DNA from: Paenibacillus sp. JZ16
GTDB lineage: Bacteria; Bacillota; Bacilli; Paenibacillales; Paenibacillaceae
Assembly: GCF_015326965.1 (NCBI RefSeq)
Contig: NZ_CP017659.1
Location: forward strand, 6,080,001-6,144,000
Length of the DNA stretch: 64,000 nt
Direction: 5' to 3'
Below the pieces are notes generated by a model. It was not told the origin of the DNA. It saw nothing but the letters and a program-made list of their open reading frames with translations, and made no database searches. Of the stretch, positions 49,183-60,518 are shown in pieces. How positions within the stretch are numbered: the first letter of the stretch is position 1; every line of letters begins with the position of its first letter. The translations under genes were made by a program, and so were the position numbers.

Positions 49183-51099
49183 ATGAAGGATATGCCCAAA
49201 TCCATATTCCTGCTTCTGCTGGTGGTGCCGCTGCTGCTGATTATATCGACCATATCACCGGGAAAATCGGACGCAAAGAGTTCTCAAATCGTGATATCCG
49301 ATTGGCAGTTTATGTGGGATAACGAACAACAGGAGGTTGTTTCGCCGGTCAACCTGCAGGGAAGAAGCTGGTTGACGGGAATACCAGACAAGAAGGGCCC
49401 CCCCGAGTCAGATGGGGTGTATTCAGCATGGAATCGTTTTACTTTACCGGCTCTCCCTTGGAAACATTCGGCCATCATGATTGACCGCATCAAGGGACAG
49501 GATGTTGTGGCTTTCTTGGAGAATGAACAGGTGTATGAAGCCAAGCGAGACTATATGTACACGAATCATTCTCTTCTGCTTCCGGTCCATCCGGATGATG
49601 CCGGCAAGACCGTTTATATATGGACGAACGGCGTCAAGGATATGACGTTAGGCATCGAAGGCGATATTATACTTGGCGAATATGAGCATTTGCGTGGAAA
49701 CTTTATCAAGAAGGACCTGGAAGATTTCATATTGGGCAGCTCGTTTCTGTTTATTGCGGTGGTCATGTTCTTTTGCTGCTTGTTCCTCCCGAAGCATACG
49801 GTATCCAGCTGGCTGTCGCTTAGCGTGGTTATTCTGGCAAGCGGGGCTATGCTTATTACGTATTCACCGTTCCTATACACTTTCTATGGAGAGCAAGGCA
49901 GCGTGTGGGTCTCGGTGTTTGATATTTCACTCTTCGCCGTGCTGCCGGCGCTGTATTACTATTTTGAGAATATGTATGGCCCCGGGCCCTATCGAGTCAT
50001 TCGCTACTGCCGAAGATTTCAAATAGCCTATTCCGTCATATGCCTGATATTTCTAGTTGCCCATGTGGTCAGCCATCATTCATTTTACGAGATCTACTAT
50101 TTGGTTTCGGTGAAGATCCTGGGTATTCTGATTATCCTGCAGATGCTGCTGCTGGTCGGTACTACGATTCTGTATGCATCCAAGCGGAACAAGGACGCTT
50201 ATATCTTTTCTGTAGGCTTTGGGATAATGGCGTTAGCGACGCTCGGAGATCTGCTGGCTTTTTATTACCATGACGGGGAATATCATTTCTTTTTATGGAA
50301 GTGGGGCATTATCGGACTGATTGTCTCCTTGATCGTCATGCTGGGCCGTAAATTCGTCCGCAGCCATGAGCAAGTGCTGCAGTATTCCAGGAAACTGGAG
50401 ATGTTTAATAATGAGCTTCAGCGATCGGAGAAGATGGAGATCATCAGCGAGCTGGCCGCCTCAGTAGCACACGAGGTTCGTAATCCACTGCAAGTGACAC
50501 GCGGCTTCATGCAGCTGCTGGCACAGAACACCAAACAGGCGGAGAAGGAGTATTTTGGCCTGGCGTTGAAGGAGCTGGATCGGGCTTCGGGAATCATCAC
50601 GGATTTCCTCACATTTGCTAAGCCTCAATTAGAGAACGAGACCAAGCTGAATGTGTATGAAGAGTTGAAGCACGTAAAAGGCATCCTGTTGCCGCTTGCC
50701 AATCTTAGCGGAGGCTCGATCGAGCTGGATAACGCAAAGGAATTATTCATGAAGGGTAATTCTTCCAAACTTAAACAAGCGATGATTAATATCGTCAAGA
50801 ATAGTATCGAATCACTGGATGGAGAAGGGGTTATTCGCATATGGGCCTATGCCAAGGGAGAAGAAGTGGTGATTCATATCAAAGATGACGGCATCGGAAT
50901 GGATGCTGCCGATCTTGAGAGACTTGGCGAGGCTTACTTCTCCAATAAATCCAAAGGGACGGGGCTTGGCTTGATGGTTACCTTTCGAATCATCGAAGCG
51001 ATGCATGGCACCATTCATTTTGTTAGTGAGAAGGGCAGCGGGACCGAGGCCATTATACGCTTTCCGGCCGTACCTGCTACGCAGGAATCGGAAGTATAA
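49183..51099 (+). CDS. 7TM sensor histidine kinase, first of a tandem pair
   Basis: Kinase of 638 residues. A signal/anchor is followed by an outside jelly-roll-like domain (about 30-170, WQFMWDNEQQ...). Seven hydrophobic helices (about 185-390) follow, as in 7TMR-DISM receptors. Next come a coiled linker (KLEMFNNELQRSEKMEIIS) and a HisKA domain with phosphoacceptor His in AASVAHEVRNPLQVTRGF. The HATPase has VKNSIES, DDGIGM and GTGLGLMVTF. Its neighbour at 51249 has the same architecture and near-identical kinase core. No response regulator is nearby, which fits a Spo0F-type phosphorelay input (inference). GAGGTGC precedes ATG. Confidence 0.87.
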   Translation: MKDMPKSIFLLLLVVPLLLIISTISPGKSDAKSSQIVISDWQFMWDNEQQEVVSPVNLQGRSWLTGIPDKKGPPESDGVYSAWNRFTLPALPWKHSAIMIDRIKGQDVVAFLENEQVYEAKRDYMYTNHSLLLPVHPDDAGKTVYIWTNGVKDMTLGIEGDIILGEYEHLRGNFIKKDLEDFILGSSFLFIAVVMFFCCLFLPKHTVSSWLSLSVVILASGAMLITYSPFLYTFYGEQGSVWVSVFDISLFAVLPALYYYFENMYGPGPYRVIRYCRRFQIAYSVICLIFLVAHVVSHHSFYEIYYLVSVKILGILIILQMLLLVGTTILYASKRNKDAYIFSVGFGIMALATLGDLLAFYYHDGEYHFFLWKWGIIGLIVSLIVMLGRKFVRSHEQVLQYSRKLEMFNNELQRSEKMEIISELAASVAHEVRNPLQVTRGFMQLLAQNTKQAEKEYFGLALKELDRASGIITDFLTFAKPQLENETKLNVYEELKHVKGILLPLANLSGGSIELDNAKELFMKGNSSKLKQAMINIVKNSIESLDGEGVIRIWAYAKGEEVVIHIKDDGIGMDAADLERLGEAYFSNKSKGTGLGLMVTFRIIEAMHGTIHFVSEKGSGTEAIIRFPAVPATQESEV

Positions 51100-51248: not shown

Positions 51249-53138
51249 ATGAAGTCTGGATGGAGAATCGCTGTGTTCCTGATCATCGTATTTACTTTAA
51301 GCCAGGGGCTCCCCAGGCTTGTCTTTGCCACCGAAGAAACGGCAGTTCGTGCAGCGATTAAGGAGTGGAGAATCCTCTGGTCGGAGTCCCGGGGGATACC
51401 AGAGAGCGTCCCCGTCCATATCAATGACTGGATGGAAACTTCGGCCGGTGATTCGAAGCCTTTTAAGCCGCATACCAAGGCATCCGCGTGGATTCATATG
51501 AAGATTCCCGAGATCGCATCCACATCCCCTGGCATTTTGATTGATAAGCTCCACGGACAGCAGGTTGCGGTTTATGCGAACCATGAGAAGATTTACGAAT
51601 CTACCCGAACGTACAATTATGAGCTTAATTACATCTTGCTTCCTCTGCATCAGAACATGCTCGGCAAGGACCTTCACATCTGGCTGGAGACCGCTAGAGA
51701 TCATGTGACGATTGAAGGGAAAATCCTTGTCGGCGATTATCAGGACATGTTTAATCGGTTTATCAAGTCGAATTTAATGGACATCATTCTTGGGAGCGCC
51801 TTTATATTTATCGCATTGGTGATGTTGATCTGCGCTATTTTTTTGAACAGAAAATATTTGGTCGCTGTATTATCCCTTTCTTGCATTATTTTATCTGTAG
51901 GCATACTGGTGTTTACATACTCCCCGTTTCTTTATACGATTTTTAATCAATATGGAAATATTTACACTCACTTATATGACATCTCATTATTTATCTTACT
52001 TCCTTCGTTCAGTCTCTTTTTTGAAACCATCTTTGGGCCCGGCTGGAAGGGCTTGCTGCGCAAACTCCGCAAGTTCCAGATATTTTACTCGCTGTTTTGC
52101 GGGCTGTTTCTGATTGTTAATCAATGGGGTTCGAATCAATGGTTCGATCTGTATTATTTCTTCTCCGTTCATGTAATGGGTATTGTGATGATCGTTCAAT
52201 TTGTTTTGCTGGTCGGAAGCTCCATGTATTATGCCGTGAAGGGTAATAAGGACGCTGTTATTTTTAATGCAGGCTTTGCAATCTTCGCAGTTGTGGGCTT
52301 AAGCGAGCTGCTGCAATTTTTCCTCACCCGTGGCAGCTACAATCTCTTCCTCTGGAAATGGGGGATTGTCAGCTTCATTATTGCCTTGATTGTCATTCTG
52401 GGACGGCATTTTGCCAAAAACCACGAACGGATTCTTCAATACTCCAAGGAGCTTGAGATGTTCAACAATGAACTGCAGCGATCGGAGAAAATGGAGATCA
52501 TCAGTGAGCTTGCAGCATCGGTTGCGCATGAGGTTCGTAACCCGCTGCAAGTTACGCGGGGATTCCTGCAGCTTCTAACTGGAAAAGCCCAAGCCACGGA
52601 ACGCGAATATTTGGATTTGGCTCTGGTGGAATTAGACCGTGCATCCGGCATTATTACGGATTTCTTGACCTTTGCCAAACCGGAATTCGGCAAAGACACC
52701 GTGCTACGGGTTGCGGAGGAGTTTAAACATATCGAAGGCATACTTGGTCCACTTGCCCACCTCCAAGGAGGCAGGATTACCGTTGATATTCCGGAGGATA
52801 TTACGATTCGGGGGAATTCCTCGAAATTTAAGCAGGCTTTTATCAACATTGTTAAGAATAGCATCGAGGCGCTGGGCGAAGAGGGATTGGTTCATATCCG
52901 ATGCTATCGTCAGCAGGACCAGGTATTTATTCATGTTATAGATAATGGCGAAGGGATGGAGCCGGATGTGTTGGCACGGCTGGGAGAGCCTTATTTCTCC
53001 AACAAAACCAAGGGCACGGGGCTTGGTCTGATGGTGACCTTCCGAATTATCGAGGCCATGAATGGAGACATTTATTTTACGAGTAAAAAAGGAGTGGGGA
53101 CGGATGCTGTCATTACGCTTCCCGCAGCTGGCGAATAA
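51249..53138 (+). CDS. 7TM sensor histidine kinase, second of a tandem pair
   Basis: Kinase of 629 residues, paralogous to the gene at 49183. Signal peptide, jelly-roll sensor (WRILWSESRGIPESVPVHI...), seven spans, then LEMFNNELQRSEKMEIISEL shared verbatim with the paralogue, H-box AASVAHEVRNPLQVTRGFLQ and HATPase with DNGEGM. The G1 motif here is DNGEGM, against DDGIGM in the first copy. The sensor domain is much more diverged than the kinase core, as expected when duplicated receptors take different ligands. It converges on the peptide/isoprenoid pair downstream. The region is more A/T-rich than surroundings. Confidence 0.86.
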   Translation: MKSGWRIAVFLIIVFTLSQGLPRLVFATEETAVRAAIKEWRILWSESRGIPESVPVHINDWMETSAGDSKPFKPHTKASAWIHMKIPEIASTSPGILIDKLHGQQVAVYANHEKIYESTRTYNYELNYILLPLHQNMLGKDLHIWLETARDHVTIEGKILVGDYQDMFNRFIKSNLMDIILGSAFIFIALVMLICAIFLNRKYLVAVLSLSCIILSVGILVFTYSPFLYTIFNQYGNIYTHLYDISLFILLPSFSLFFETIFGPGWKGLLRKLRKFQIFYSLFCGLFLIVNQWGSNQWFDLYYFFSVHVMGIVMIVQFVLLVGSSMYYAVKGNKDAVIFNAGFAIFAVVGLSELLQFFLTRGSYNLFLWKWGIVSFIIALIVILGRHFAKNHERILQYSKELEMFNNELQRSEKMEIISELAASVAHEVRNPLQVTRGFLQLLTGKAQATEREYLDLALVELDRASGIITDFLTFAKPEFGKDTVLRVAEEFKHIEGILGPLAHLQGGRITVDIPEDITIRGNSSKFKQAFINIVKNSIEALGEEGLVHIRCYRQQDQVFIHVIDNGEGMEPDVLARLGEPYFSNKTKGTGLGLMVTFRIIEAMNGDIYFTSKKGVGTDAVITLPAAGE

Positions 53139-53232: not shown

Positions 53233-53472
53233 TTACCAGATGGCTTTTGCTGTGGCTTCTGACTTGATCACGCCTGATGGATTCGGAGGAATGACCAGAT
53301 ACAGCTCGTTAGGGTTCTCTTCAAGCGTTCGAATCTCGATGTGGTCGGGAATCCGCACCCCAAGAACTTCCTTGATGGCGGATTTCGGATCGCTAAGCAA
53401 TTTTGCCTTAAAGCTAGGATCCTCCCAAGCTTTTTGAATCAATTGTGTTTGAAAGATGGCTTCTGTCGTCAT
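53233..53472 (-). CDS. NHLP-leader-family peptide with C-terminal Trp
   Basis: Predicted 79-residue peptide. Residues about 12-62 match the nitrile-hydratase-like leader peptide family of RiPP precursors: KAWEDPSFKAKLLSDPK, LGVRIPDHIEIRTLEEN and LYLVIPP are its hallmark segments. A 14-residue tail (SGVIKSEATAKAIW) follows and ends in Trp. The tail lacks the usual GG cleavage site, so this is a minimal member. Its stop is convergent with kinase 2. AAAGGGTGA lies 5 bases before ATG at 53472. It follows a class I isoprenoid-synthase-like gene on the same strand at 72 bases; together they resemble the comQ-comX order. A free-standing nitrile-hydratase-like protein is the alternative. Confidence 0.78.
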   Translation of the reverse strand: MTTEAIFQTQLIQKAWEDPSFKAKLLSDPKSAIKEVLGVRIPDHIEIRTLEENPNELYLVIPPNPSGVIKSEATAKAIW

Positions 53473-53544
53473 AAGAATCACCCTTTCAAATAAATTGGTT
53501 ATTTTTTACTCTTAAAGAATACCATGGAACAAATATAAAATCTA

Positions 53545-54498
53545 TTATTTTTTGCTTAGAATAGACAAGTAATAGTTTAATCCGCCAAAAGAAAGGGTTT
53601 CTTTACTGTTTTCGATATGATTTGCTTCGGCTTGAAGCTCGTCCACCATCGTTTGATGAAAGGAGATGAGATGGGGGGCGTCTATATCTACCGATAAGAG
53701 AAAGGCATGGGTCGCTGCCGCAATGTCTGCATAGGGCTTCAACGCGTTGTTGATATAGATGGCTTCTTGAACTTCGGCCATCGTCAGATTCGTGTCGCGC
53801 GGTCGTCCCAATTCCGATTTAATGAGAGACAGCAGGCAATTGTAGCTGCCATCCGCAAGATCCTGTTTCCAATCGGTCCAATCGTCCATCATCTGCAAGG
53901 TAAGCAAAACATGGTTCATTACATCATTCGTTCGTGGAATGAGGCCTGCTTGATCAGATAAAAGCAATGCTGCCGTGCTTCCCAGCTTTACGGGAGCTGC
54001 CTTTTTTGCAACCATGATAGGGTTGTGCTTGAAGTAATCATCCTGGGTTTCATGGATAACGCCTTCCGACCATTCAAACGTGTAGTTTTTGAAATAAGAC
54101 CAGAAGTCGGAGTTTGCTGGAAAATAGGGTTGATAGGATGTGAGAAATTCGTAATACAGCAGGTTAGCAAGTGCGAGATGATGTTTCGAATCTGTGGAAG
54201 ACTGACTGTCATGGGGCGAGTCCATTATGTCGTCTTGAATGAAGTAGTATAACATGCCGATTATGTTGGCCGCTGAGAGGTGTCGGTATACATCGGCGGG
54301 GAGTTCGGTCAGTTCTTTCATCCAGAAAGGAAGCAGATAACAAATGTAATTTTTGGAACTGTCCTGCTCGAACACGTCAAACTTTCTCAAGTAGGAAAGA
54401 CCGATTTCATTCAAGGGAGCAGGGAGCTCGGATAACCTTGCTTCGCAGACAGAGAATGCGGCAGCAAGATCGTCCTCGAACGGCTTGAACCAGTTCAT
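53545..54498 (-). CDS. Class I isoprenoid-synthase-fold enzyme
   Basis: All-helical protein of 317 residues. It has two Asp-rich metal motifs expected for Mg2+-diphosphate binding: FIQDDIMDSPHD at about 90-101 and QMMDDWTDWKQD at about 210-221. The second is followed by SYNCLLSL, like NSE/DDXXD-type sites. The family includes prenyl transferases, terpene cyclases and ComQ-type peptide isoprenyl transferases. N-terminal FEDDLAAAFSV and a C-terminal Asn/His-rich helix are not assignable. It is the upstream gene of the NHLP peptide, so the peptide is a plausible substrate; a stand-alone terpene enzyme is the alternative. GGTGAT precedes the ATG. Confidence 0.75.
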   Translation of the reverse strand: MNWFKPFEDDLAAAFSVCEARLSELPAPLNEIGLSYLRKFDVFEQDSSKNYICYLLPFWMKELTELPADVYRHLSAANIIGMLYYFIQDDIMDSPHDSQSSTDSKHHLALANLLYYEFLTSYQPYFPANSDFWSYFKNYTFEWSEGVIHETQDDYFKHNPIMVAKKAAPVKLGSTAALLLSDQAGLIPRTNDVMNHVLLTLQMMDDWTDWKQDLADGSYNCLLSLIKSELGRPRDTNLTMAEVQEAIYINNALKPYADIAAATHAFLLSVDIDAPHLISFHQTMVDELQAEANHIENSKETLSFGGLNYYLSILSKK

Positions 54499-54733: not shown

Positions 54734-55396
54734 ATGACTCAGAAAATTGTAGGAGCTTTTCGGACGGAGCAGGAAGCAACCCGGGCCATTGAGGAACTAA
54801 AGCAGCAAGGTTTCAGAGCCGATGAAATCTCTGTCATTGCCAAAGATCGCGGTGAATCTTCTCATATTCAGGAGGAGACCGGCACCAAGGCACCTGAGGG
54901 CTTGGCATCCGGTGCGGCTACAGGCGGTGTATTAGGCGGTGTAACCGGATTGCTAGCCGGCTTAGGTGCATTGGCCATTCCAGGCATTGGTCCGATCGTC
55001 GCGGCTGGTCCGATCGCGGCAACCCTTACGGGAGCAGCCGTTGGCGCCGGCGCGGGCGGATTGGTAGGCGGTCTTATTGGCCTTGGAATTCCGGAAGAGC
55101 AAGCCGAGGAATATGGGGGCTATGTGGATGAAGGCCATATTCTGGTCATGGTGGATGCAGATGAAACGAACGGTGGCCGGGTATATGATATATTCCGCAG
55201 CAATAGCGCCCTTAATGAACATCATTACCGTGAGGAAGGCACCTATAGCGGTTCCGGTGCGCCGGTAGATTCACGCTCCGAAGCAGCGGCTGCCACCGAG
55301 GATGCGGTTCCGGACCCTAATCTGTATCAAGGTTATGGTGATGGTAATGGCGGTGCCATAAGTCCGGATCGGGATGAGATCTCGAAGAGACGGTAA
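54734..55396 (+). CDS. General stress protein, glycine-zipper type
   Basis: Protein of 220 residues. The N terminus IVGAFRTEQEATRAIEELKQQGF is the general-stress-protein 17M/YflT-like domain. A long Gly/Ala-rich hydrophobic block (about 55-120, VLGGVTGLLAGLGALAIPG) forms a glycine-zipper membrane or interface segment. HILVMVDADETNGGRVYDIF is a repeat of the ferredoxin-like strand. The C-terminal 50 residues are acidic and disordered. AGGAGG precedes ATG. Sigma-B control is typical for the family; GTTTAA at about 54679 with GATAAC downstream is only a weak match. Confidence 0.8.
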   Translation: MTQKIVGAFRTEQEATRAIEELKQQGFRADEISVIAKDRGESSHIQEETGTKAPEGLASGAATGGVLGGVTGLLAGLGALAIPGIGPIVAAGPIAATLTGAAVGAGAGGLVGGLIGLGIPEEQAEEYGGYVDEGHILVMVDADETNGGRVYDIFRSNSALNEHHYREEGTYSGSGAPVDSRSEAAAATEDAVPDPNLYQGYGDGNGGAISPDRDEISKRR

Positions 55397-59609: not shown

Positions 59610-60518
59610 TTAAGCTGCTCGTCGATATTCGTTAGGGGATAAGCCGTTTAGTCGTTCGGTGTATCGAAAATTATTGTAATAATAGATATAAGCTCTTACA
59701 CTACGAAGGAGACTGTCATACGTATCGTACTTCTCCAGATAATAGCTTTCTGCTTTTAAGGTACCCCAGAATCGTTCAATGGGTTGGTTGTCCAAACACC
59801 GGCTTACACGAGACATACTTTTTGTAAACTTGTATCTCTTTTGAAGTTGTCTGTATTCCAGCGAAGTATATTGAAAGCCGCGATCACTGTGCAAGAGCGG
59901 CGTAGCATTCGGATTTCTTTTATATGCTTTCTTTACCGTATTCATGACAAGCTCATTGTTATTGGAATGGCTGAACACCCATGAAACAACAGAGTTGTCA
60001 TATCCATCAATAATGGCACTCAGGTAGGCCTTGCGGCCATTTCCGTACTTTAGCTCTGTTACATCGGTGCACCACTTTTGGTTGGGGACCTCCGCTTGGA
60101 ATTTTCGGTTCATGACATTCTCAGCGATATGTTGGGCTGGAGCTTTCATGTAATTTGGCCGTTTTTTGCGAATCACTGCCCTTAATTCAAGGGCTCGCAT
60201 GATGCGATAATACCGTTTACGGTTGTAACTTTTTTTAAGCTTACGATTTAACTGAGTACGCATTTGGCGATAACCGAGTATCCCGTTTCGTTTGTCATAG
60301 CGACGCTTGACTTCCTTGGCTAGTGCAAGATTTTCAAGTTCCCTGACGGATGGGATCCATTTCAGCCACTTATAATAGGCAGATCGGGCGATTCCTGCTA
60401 GCTCACAGAGCTTGGTGATCGCATATCCCTTCTCGGCATGCAGTTCTGTAATCGCTTGATAAATGTCTGCATGCCGAACAAGGGTTAACGTGTATTTCTT
60501 CGCCGGATCTCTGTCAAC
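59610..60518 (-). CDS. IS3-family transposase OrfB (integrase core)
   Basis: DDE recombinase, about 302 residues if read from the frameshift site at 60518. An HTH_21-type N terminus (ITELHAEKGYAITKLCELAG...) precedes the rve core. Catalytic acids are Asp in WCTDVTELKYGNG, Asp in LLHSDRGFQYTS and Glu in NQPIERFWGTLKAE. An independent ATG at 60263 would lose about 85 residues, so the frameshift product with OrfA is the likely transposase. No stop or frameshift damages the frame. Confidence 0.85.
   Translation of the reverse strand, partial: VDRDPAKKYTLTLVRHADIYQAITELHAEKGYAITKLCELAGIARSAYYKWLKWIPSVRELENLALAKEVKRRYDKRNGILGYRQMRTQLNRKLKKSYNRKRYYRIMRALELRAVIRKKRPNYMKAPAQHIAENVMNRKFQAEVPNQKWCTDVTELKYGNGRKAYLSAIIDGYDNSVVSWVFSHSNNNELVMNTVKKAYKRNPNATPLLHSDRGFQYTSLEYRQLQKRYKFTKSMSRVSRCLDNQPIERFWGTLKAESYYLEKYDTYDSLLRSVRAYIYYYNNFRYTERLNGLSPNEYRRAA

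Follow-up and report, generated by a model that had tools for sequence, protein, structure and literature searches.

A palQ-palX gene pair and two adjoining PalP-family histidine kinases, found in the 64,000-nucleotide stretch of Paenibacillus sp. JZ16 DNA analysed here (the window), are read by us, with a probability of roughly 0.8, as a locus for a prenylated-peptide signal of the PalX-PalQ kind, possibly feeding the sporulation phosphorelay. The breadth of its distribution and the kinase data make the locus a good candidate for a Paenibacillus lipidated-peptide signalling system, and the comparative data yield a testable hypothesis in which a lipidated peptide signal, present by its enzyme PalQ in 252 of 295 family genomes, would enter the sporulation phosphorelay. 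That the pair exists is not news; its purpose is what would matter.

The window carries a further PalX-PalQ pair

A cluster consisting of an NHLP precursor (PalX), a prenyltransferase (PalQ) and a histidine kinase (PalP) was described in P. alvei by Miyata, Ito and Fujinami (PMC10853753). P. alvei PalQ moves C5, C10 or C15 prenyl chains onto C3 of the C-terminal Trp, the prenylated Trp closes into a pyrroloindole, and the PalX leader aids the enzyme but is dispensable (PMC10853753). Acceptor residues other than Trp failed, alanines appended after the Trp abolished the reaction, and P. alvei cell lysate cleaved PalX eight residues from its end (PMC10853753). The terminal-Trp requirement is restated in the available portions of a 2026 review from the same group (PMC13290415), and a word search of the main text of that review returned neither PalX nor a histidine kinase. 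PalP was named in the P. alvei study, whose main text tries no signalling role for it (PMC10853753), and no paper proposing such a role was recognised among the matches listed by full-text searches of the PMC literature.

In the window, palQ lies 63 bp upstream of palX on the same strand, and 94 bp separates the 3′ ends of palX and of the convergent proximal kinase gene (Table 1). The peptide matches the leader_NHLP model TIGR03793 with 69.7 bits (cut-off of 50.9; E-value of 1.4e-19), while PalQ is 44% identical to P. alvei PalQ over 312 columns and adopts the isoprenoid synthase fold, which is that of prenyl diphosphate synthases. Moreover, its residues D89, D93, Q202, D205 and D209 align to D89, D93, Q197, D200 and D204 of the P. 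alvei enzyme. The NHLP-like leader, the tail ending in Trp and the upstream isoprenoid-fold enzyme with two Asp-rich motifs (i.e., FARM and SARM), all pointed out in the preliminary description of this DNA, were thus found as described.

Table 1. Features of the palX-palQ locus (positions are those of the window)
Feature	Position	Strand	Remarks
Distal PalP-family histidine kinase	49183..51099	plus	Tandem paralogue of proximal kinase
Distal kinase H-box HEVRNPLQVTRGFMQL	50470..50517	plus	Specificity residues QVGFQL
Proximal PalP-type histidine kinase	51249..53138	plus	Adjoins palX, convergent; beta-sandwich ectodomain, TM bundle, HisKA, HATPase_c
Proximal kinase H-box HEVRNPLQVTRGFLQL	52527..52574	plus	Specificity residues QVGFQL
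palX (PalX-type precursor)	53233..53481	minus	82 aa from GTG; 79 aa from likely ATG at 53472; TIGR03793 and alignments
Variable tail, residues 69-82	53236..53277	minus	Conserved Trp is last codon (53236-53238); presumed core peptide
palQ (PalQ-type peptide Trp prenyltransferase)	53545..54498	minus	317 aa; 44% identity to P. alvei PalQ; fold
PalQ Gln202 and SARM (D205-D209)	53872..53895	minus	In 80/80 sequences; aligned to Q197, D200, D204 of P. alvei PalQ
PalQ FARM (D89-D93, DDIMD)	54220..54234	minus	D89 and D93 in 80/80 sequences; D90 in 75/80
YflT-domain gene	54734..55396		Far side of palQ from palX

The window pair is a homologue of PalQ-PalX, and very likely an orthologue. Like the P. alvei system (public record L091), it combines an NHLP precursor, a tail Trp, an enzyme with the same catalytic residues and a kinase gene convergent to the pair (the proximal kinase being 47% identical to PalP over 606 residues). 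It differs in having two tandem kinases instead of one and another tail, and in being known from sequence alone. Because of the 44% identity and the conserved residues, the window enzyme would almost certainly prenylate the tail Trp of PalX, and the earlier proposal that it does so in the manner of comQ and comX gains from the published activity of P. alvei PalQ on PalX (PMC10853753). Since PalX-PalQ had already been described in P. alvei, however, that proposal was right yet not new: the pairing of an NHLP leader with an isoprenoid enzyme is real, the enzyme-peptide pair is in print and ordinary as such, and the window provides a further case of it.

Compared with other NHLP-led RiPPs (proteusins among them), the leader family (TIGR03793) is shared, whereas the maturase in the window is a prenyltransferase, and just one Trp, in a short tail, is expected to be modified. 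Five neighbouring proteins (i.e., the two kinases, the YflT protein, an acetyltransferase and a sulfate permease) were scanned, and no proteusin maturase was found among them. The genome of 7.4 Mb, in a single contig, holds one NHLP match and one palQ match, and the closest named locus by PalQ among the best 80 of 199 loci is that of P. lautus NBRC 15380 (94% identity), to which species the window genome is probably close. Elsewhere in the window, an ORF at 59610-60263 resembles, by eye, part of an IS3-type transposase.

A free isoprenoid, made independently of the peptide by a terpene synthase or prenyl diphosphate synthase, would fit the fold of the enzyme and the fact that some relatives are named terpene synthase in the source databases. 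This reading is highly improbable and was rejected, since a homologous PalQ has been demonstrated to prenylate a peptide (PMC10853753) and since enzyme and peptide are present or absent together in 100 of 100 same-genus genomes, with L090 as the one named locus where palQ has no peptide beside it. The preliminary description had allowed for a prenylated peptide or a terpenoid-peptide product and had set against these a terpene independent of the peptide; the P. alvei product is a prenylated peptide, so that the independent terpene does not hold and no free terpenoid product has to be invoked.

A conserved leader and a variable tail with a conserved Trp

In an alignment of 82 peptides (the window plus 79 named loci, of which L048 and L097 gave two rows each), leader positions were near-invariant, i.e., W19 in 81, F24 and P45 in all 82, and P65 and P68 in 81 rows. 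At positions 69-81, the 13 that precede the final Trp, the most frequent residue occupied 16-60% of the rows. The Trp column was filled in 81 of the 82 rows (including L091), the exception being a 46-aa fragment in L048.

The Trp is the C-terminal residue in the window but not always elsewhere, so that of the invariant C-terminal Trp for which the preliminary description had looked, the Trp itself was borne out and its last place was not. In the 80 tails that were parsed (omitting the rows of L045 and the L048 fragment), Trp came last in 65 and was followed by one residue in 11, two in 3 and six in L091. Counted as one precursor per locus (78 including the window; L041, L090 and L091 left out), it was last in 64 and followed by one or two residues (S, M, GD, E, Q, P, A, L, R or TP) in 14. 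Further loci also extend past the Trp (e.g., L219, with the longest ends being WRSF in L213 and WGTGG in L220). Such extensions run counter to the published behaviour of P. alvei PalQ, which does not accept them. Either a peptidase trims such precursors first or those PalQ enzymes differ.

Several precursors may accompany one enzyme. Five fetched genomes (L208-L212, i.e., G411, G442, G415, G455 and G423, respectively) carry a second, diverged palQ copy accompanied by two to four palX matches, of which the second in L208 is weak (54 aa). At each of these loci the palX tails differ, every tail has one residue after its Trp, and there is a single palQ and a single kinase. Two full palX genes are also carried by L097.

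Three side observations concern the public records. In that of P. alvei (L091:7912-8295), the palX frame stays open beyond the core region given in the publication (PMC10853753) instead of stopping at the Trp described there, and the two disagree at this point. The palQ gene of Paenibacillus sp. JCM 10914 (L041:7001-7956) is split across two overlapping frames. In G074 (C1:3094335-3095472), three more NHLP-like peptides (E-values of 2.5e-12 to 3.1e-11) and a fragment lie in tandem, distant from palQ, and are perhaps another NHLP RiPP cluster.

The pair is widespread and travels together

PalQ was found in 79 of 100 genomes of the genus (that of the window included). A family-level sample gave it in 252 of 295 genomes and 15 of 19 genera, and an order-level sample in 154 of 246 genomes and 19 of 46 genera, these three samples overlapping. 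The genome-wide matches include broken or split palQ genes (G009, G029 and G063). PalX matches with an E-value of 2.4e-31 or better fell in the same 79 of 100 same-genus genomes as PalQ, with weak NHLP matches in G051 and G090 (E-value of about 1e-4) scored as absent, so that the two genes occurred together in 79 genomes, were both missing from 21 and were never apart. Since genomes of one genus are related, these co-occurrences are not independent events.

Among the best 80 of 199 loci, to which the named-locus counts refer (plus the window where stated), the peptide lies beside palQ in 79 and a PalP-family kinase in 79. The sole exception is L090 (P. nasutitermitis), where palQ has neither palX nor a PalP-type kinase within 7 kb on either side. 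Eighteen further stretches, picked mostly for a diverged or second-copy palQ (L221 being an ordinary one), had a peptide match in 18 and a kinase in 17 (L214 without), and in L218 palX lies on the strand opposite palQ. The palX-palQ-kinase module thus holds together across four families of the order, second-copy loci included. A pairing special to the window genome was rejected because the pair co-occurs widely, and the conservation that the preliminary description had wished to see checked reaches well beyond close relatives.

PalP-family kinases beside the pair

The two PalP-type kinases downstream of the pair had been missed by the preliminary description. Both match HisKA (PF00512). A model of the sensor (pLDDT of 79.8) shows a beta-sandwich ectodomain (at about residues 35-163) and helices up to residue 394. 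The 7TMR-DISM family (PF07695) scored 23.3 bits on the proximal kinase, below its cut-off of 29, and was matched at an E-value of 0.01 or less by 12 of 28 sensors. Across 76 proximal kinases, the ectodomain was the most variable part, with a mean pairwise identity of 0.31 vs. 0.71 for the phosphoacceptor region.

PalP-family sensor matches were present in 99 of 100 same-genus genomes. Genomes with PalX and PalQ had two or more such matches in 75 of 79 cases and one in 4, and genomes without the pair had one in 19 of 21 cases, two in G052 and none in G036 (copy counts being counts of matches, which exceed three in G029 and G064). Thirteen of the 21 pair-less genomes were fetched, and in a midpoint-rooted FastTree tree of 123 kinases those of 12 grouped with the distal (L136-L139) or upstream-position (L128-L135) kinases of other genomes; proximal, distal and upstream are positional labels, and the proximal and the distal kinases each span more than one clade. 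The thirteenth, G052 (L127), has kept the YflT gene together with both kinases; a gap of 134 bp lies between the YflT match and the proximal kinase, and tblastn with PalX or PalQ gave no match. Conversely, L061, L063 and L072 have an upstream kinase only, with no kinase in the proximal position, and the single kinase of L039 groups with distal kinases. The proximal-position kinase therefore tends to go with the pair, but these four loci indicate that the pair does not strictly need it.

The sporulation phosphorelay as most likely output

No regulator-like ORF was found within 1.5 kb of any of 109 PalP-family kinases, either by a motif rule (which recovers just 8 of the 13 regulators that the genome-survey rule found in 27 control kinases) or by a looser rule. 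The specificity residues of 108 parsed PalP-family H-boxes read QVGFQL (91), QVGFQI (13), QVGFQV (3) or QVGFQF (1). For the sporulation kinases KinA to KinE, Davidson and colleagues give, in the part of their article available, TAGFQL, TVGFQL, TSGFQI, TGGFQL and TAGFQL, respectively, and other specificity residues for kinases acting directly on Spo0A (PMC6136694). QVGFQL is thus like that of the Spo0F-directed KinB in five of six residues, the first being Gln and not the Thr of KinA-KinE. PalP-type kinases share with KinA-KinE, as presented there (PMC6136694), their orphan state and xxGFQ(L/I) specificity residues, and differ from them in that first residue, in their beta-sandwich and TM-bundle sensor and in adjoining a peptide-modifying pair.

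Within the window genome, GFQ-type residues were present in 8 of the 26 kinases that lack a nearby regulator vs. 1 of the 30 that have one (Fisher p-value of 0.008). Six of the 26 are hybrid kinases that carry a receiver themselves, and a regulator may go unseen where the stretch is short. With the two PalP kinases excluded, the count was 6 of 24 without a regulator (Fisher p-value of 0.036). This survey took in 62 kinase stretches (the two weakest of 66 hits left out) and the two window kinases, and yielded 56 parsed H-boxes, with 8 misfitting the pattern. A Spo0F-like ORF adjoining pyrG reads DDQNGIRILLVEVF and PFDIDE, a by-eye match to the QGILEVD set of B. subtilis Spo0F, and phosphorelay proteins are stated in the accessible text of a survey to occur in >99% of Paenibacillus genomes (PMC12826061).

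Because there is no adjacent response regulator and the specificity residues resemble those of sporulation kinases, transfer of phosphate to Spo0F and then to Spo0A would be the probable route. The phosphorelay is therefore the most likely output, although the Gln in the first specificity position calls for caution; that PalP output indeed runs through Spo0F is a suggestion drawn from these residues which we would put somewhat short of even odds.

Likeness to and difference from ComQXPA

As set out in the part of PMC4008528 available, the ComQ-ComX-ComP-ComA system of B. subtilis shares with the window locus an isoprenoid-synthase-fold Trp prenyltransferase encoded upstream of a short precursor, a precursor Trp near the C terminus and a membrane kinase close by. 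In contrast, the window has an NHLP leader and not ComX, HisKA and not HisKA_3, and a convergent kinase gene without an adjacent response regulator. The ComQ profile given there is PF00348 (PMC4008528), which was not among the two families matched at an E-value of 0.01 or less by any of 32 PalQ members. Likewise, ComX (PF05952) was absent from the profile matches of the window peptide up to an E-value of 1, and the phosphoacceptor domain PF07730 from the matches of both window kinases. With ComQ, ComX, PF07730 and an adjacent ComA-type regulator all missing, membership of ComQXPA was rejected. The likeness to comQXP raised in the preliminary description consequently stands in logic and fails as family membership, and the best reading is a locus that is ComQXP-like in logic but not a family member.

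A possible peptide signal and its alternatives

In the proposed mechanism, PalQ would bind a prenyl diphosphate, which in P. alvei ranges from C5 to C15, and take PalX, the NHLP leader helping, upon which C3 of the tail Trp would be prenylated and close to a pyrroloindole, as was shown for P. alvei. A protease would then release the short lipidated tail, which would leave the cell. The neighbourhood and the joint loss of genes suggest that a PalP-type kinase, with its beta-sandwich ectodomain and TM bundle, would sense this tail, after which it would pass phosphate to Spo0F and onward to Spo0A.

That the PalX-derived peptide is the signal read by the PalP kinase is the likelier case in our judgement, although a co-evolutionary trace of it did not appear. 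Over 74 loci, covariation of the tail with the proximal ectodomain beyond shared descent gave a partial Mantel r of –0.055 when distances in PalQ, in the leader and in the catalytic part were controlled for, a value that 1772 of 2000 permutations reached or exceeded; the test is coarse, using identity distances and 11-residue tails. The values were –0.318 for the 25 loci with two kinases (reached or exceeded in 1996 of 2000 permutations), 0.012 for the 49 other loci (814 of 2000) and 0.022 for the distal kinase. Without the PalQ, leader and catalytic controls, the tail tracked the catalytic part of the kinase (partial r of 0.273) above the ectodomain (0.041).

This lack of tail-ectodomain covariation speaks for an alternative in which the product of PalX and PalQ, be it a signal or a metabolite, goes undetected by PalP, the kinases being older sporulation-type sensors next door. 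The persistence of kinase homologues in 20 of the 21 pair-less genomes, and of both kinases in G052 without palX-palQ, points the same way. Such an arrangement nevertheless seems unlikely, given that kinases of the proximal position are absent from 12 of 13 fetched pair-less genomes and that the module is intact in four families of the order, even at second-copy loci. Less probable again is that PalX is a lipidated antimicrobial RiPP whose production is regulated by kinases sensing membrane stress or self-damage. NHLP leaders are RiPP leaders, antiSMASH detected the P. alvei cluster as a RiPP cluster (PMC10853753), and enzymatic prenylation increased the potency of membrane-active peptides according to the part of the 2026 review available (PMC13290415); but no exporter, immunity gene or second maturase was found among the five neighbouring proteins scanned, a kinase nearly always adjoins the pair, and a presence of PalQ in 252 of 295 family genomes resembles that of a core regulatory gene more than that of an antibiotic cluster.

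Returning to a peptide signal sensed by PalP, a broader proposal can be put forward tentatively, and with less assurance than the Spo0F output itself: palQ-palX-palP may be a cell-cell signalling system widespread in the Paenibacillus order, whereby a GPCR-like 7TM kinase would read a prenylated Trp peptide and feed Spo0F-Spo0B-Spo0A, so that a lipidated pheromone would gate sporulation. In some genomes the system would then have expanded to two to four different precursors for each enzyme and kinase, and some members of the PalQ family would act on a Trp that is not the last residue encoded, or after trimming to it. If true, the locus would parallel ComQXP without passing the profile tests of that family, and work on PalQ would gain natural substrates with a Trp ahead of the last residue.
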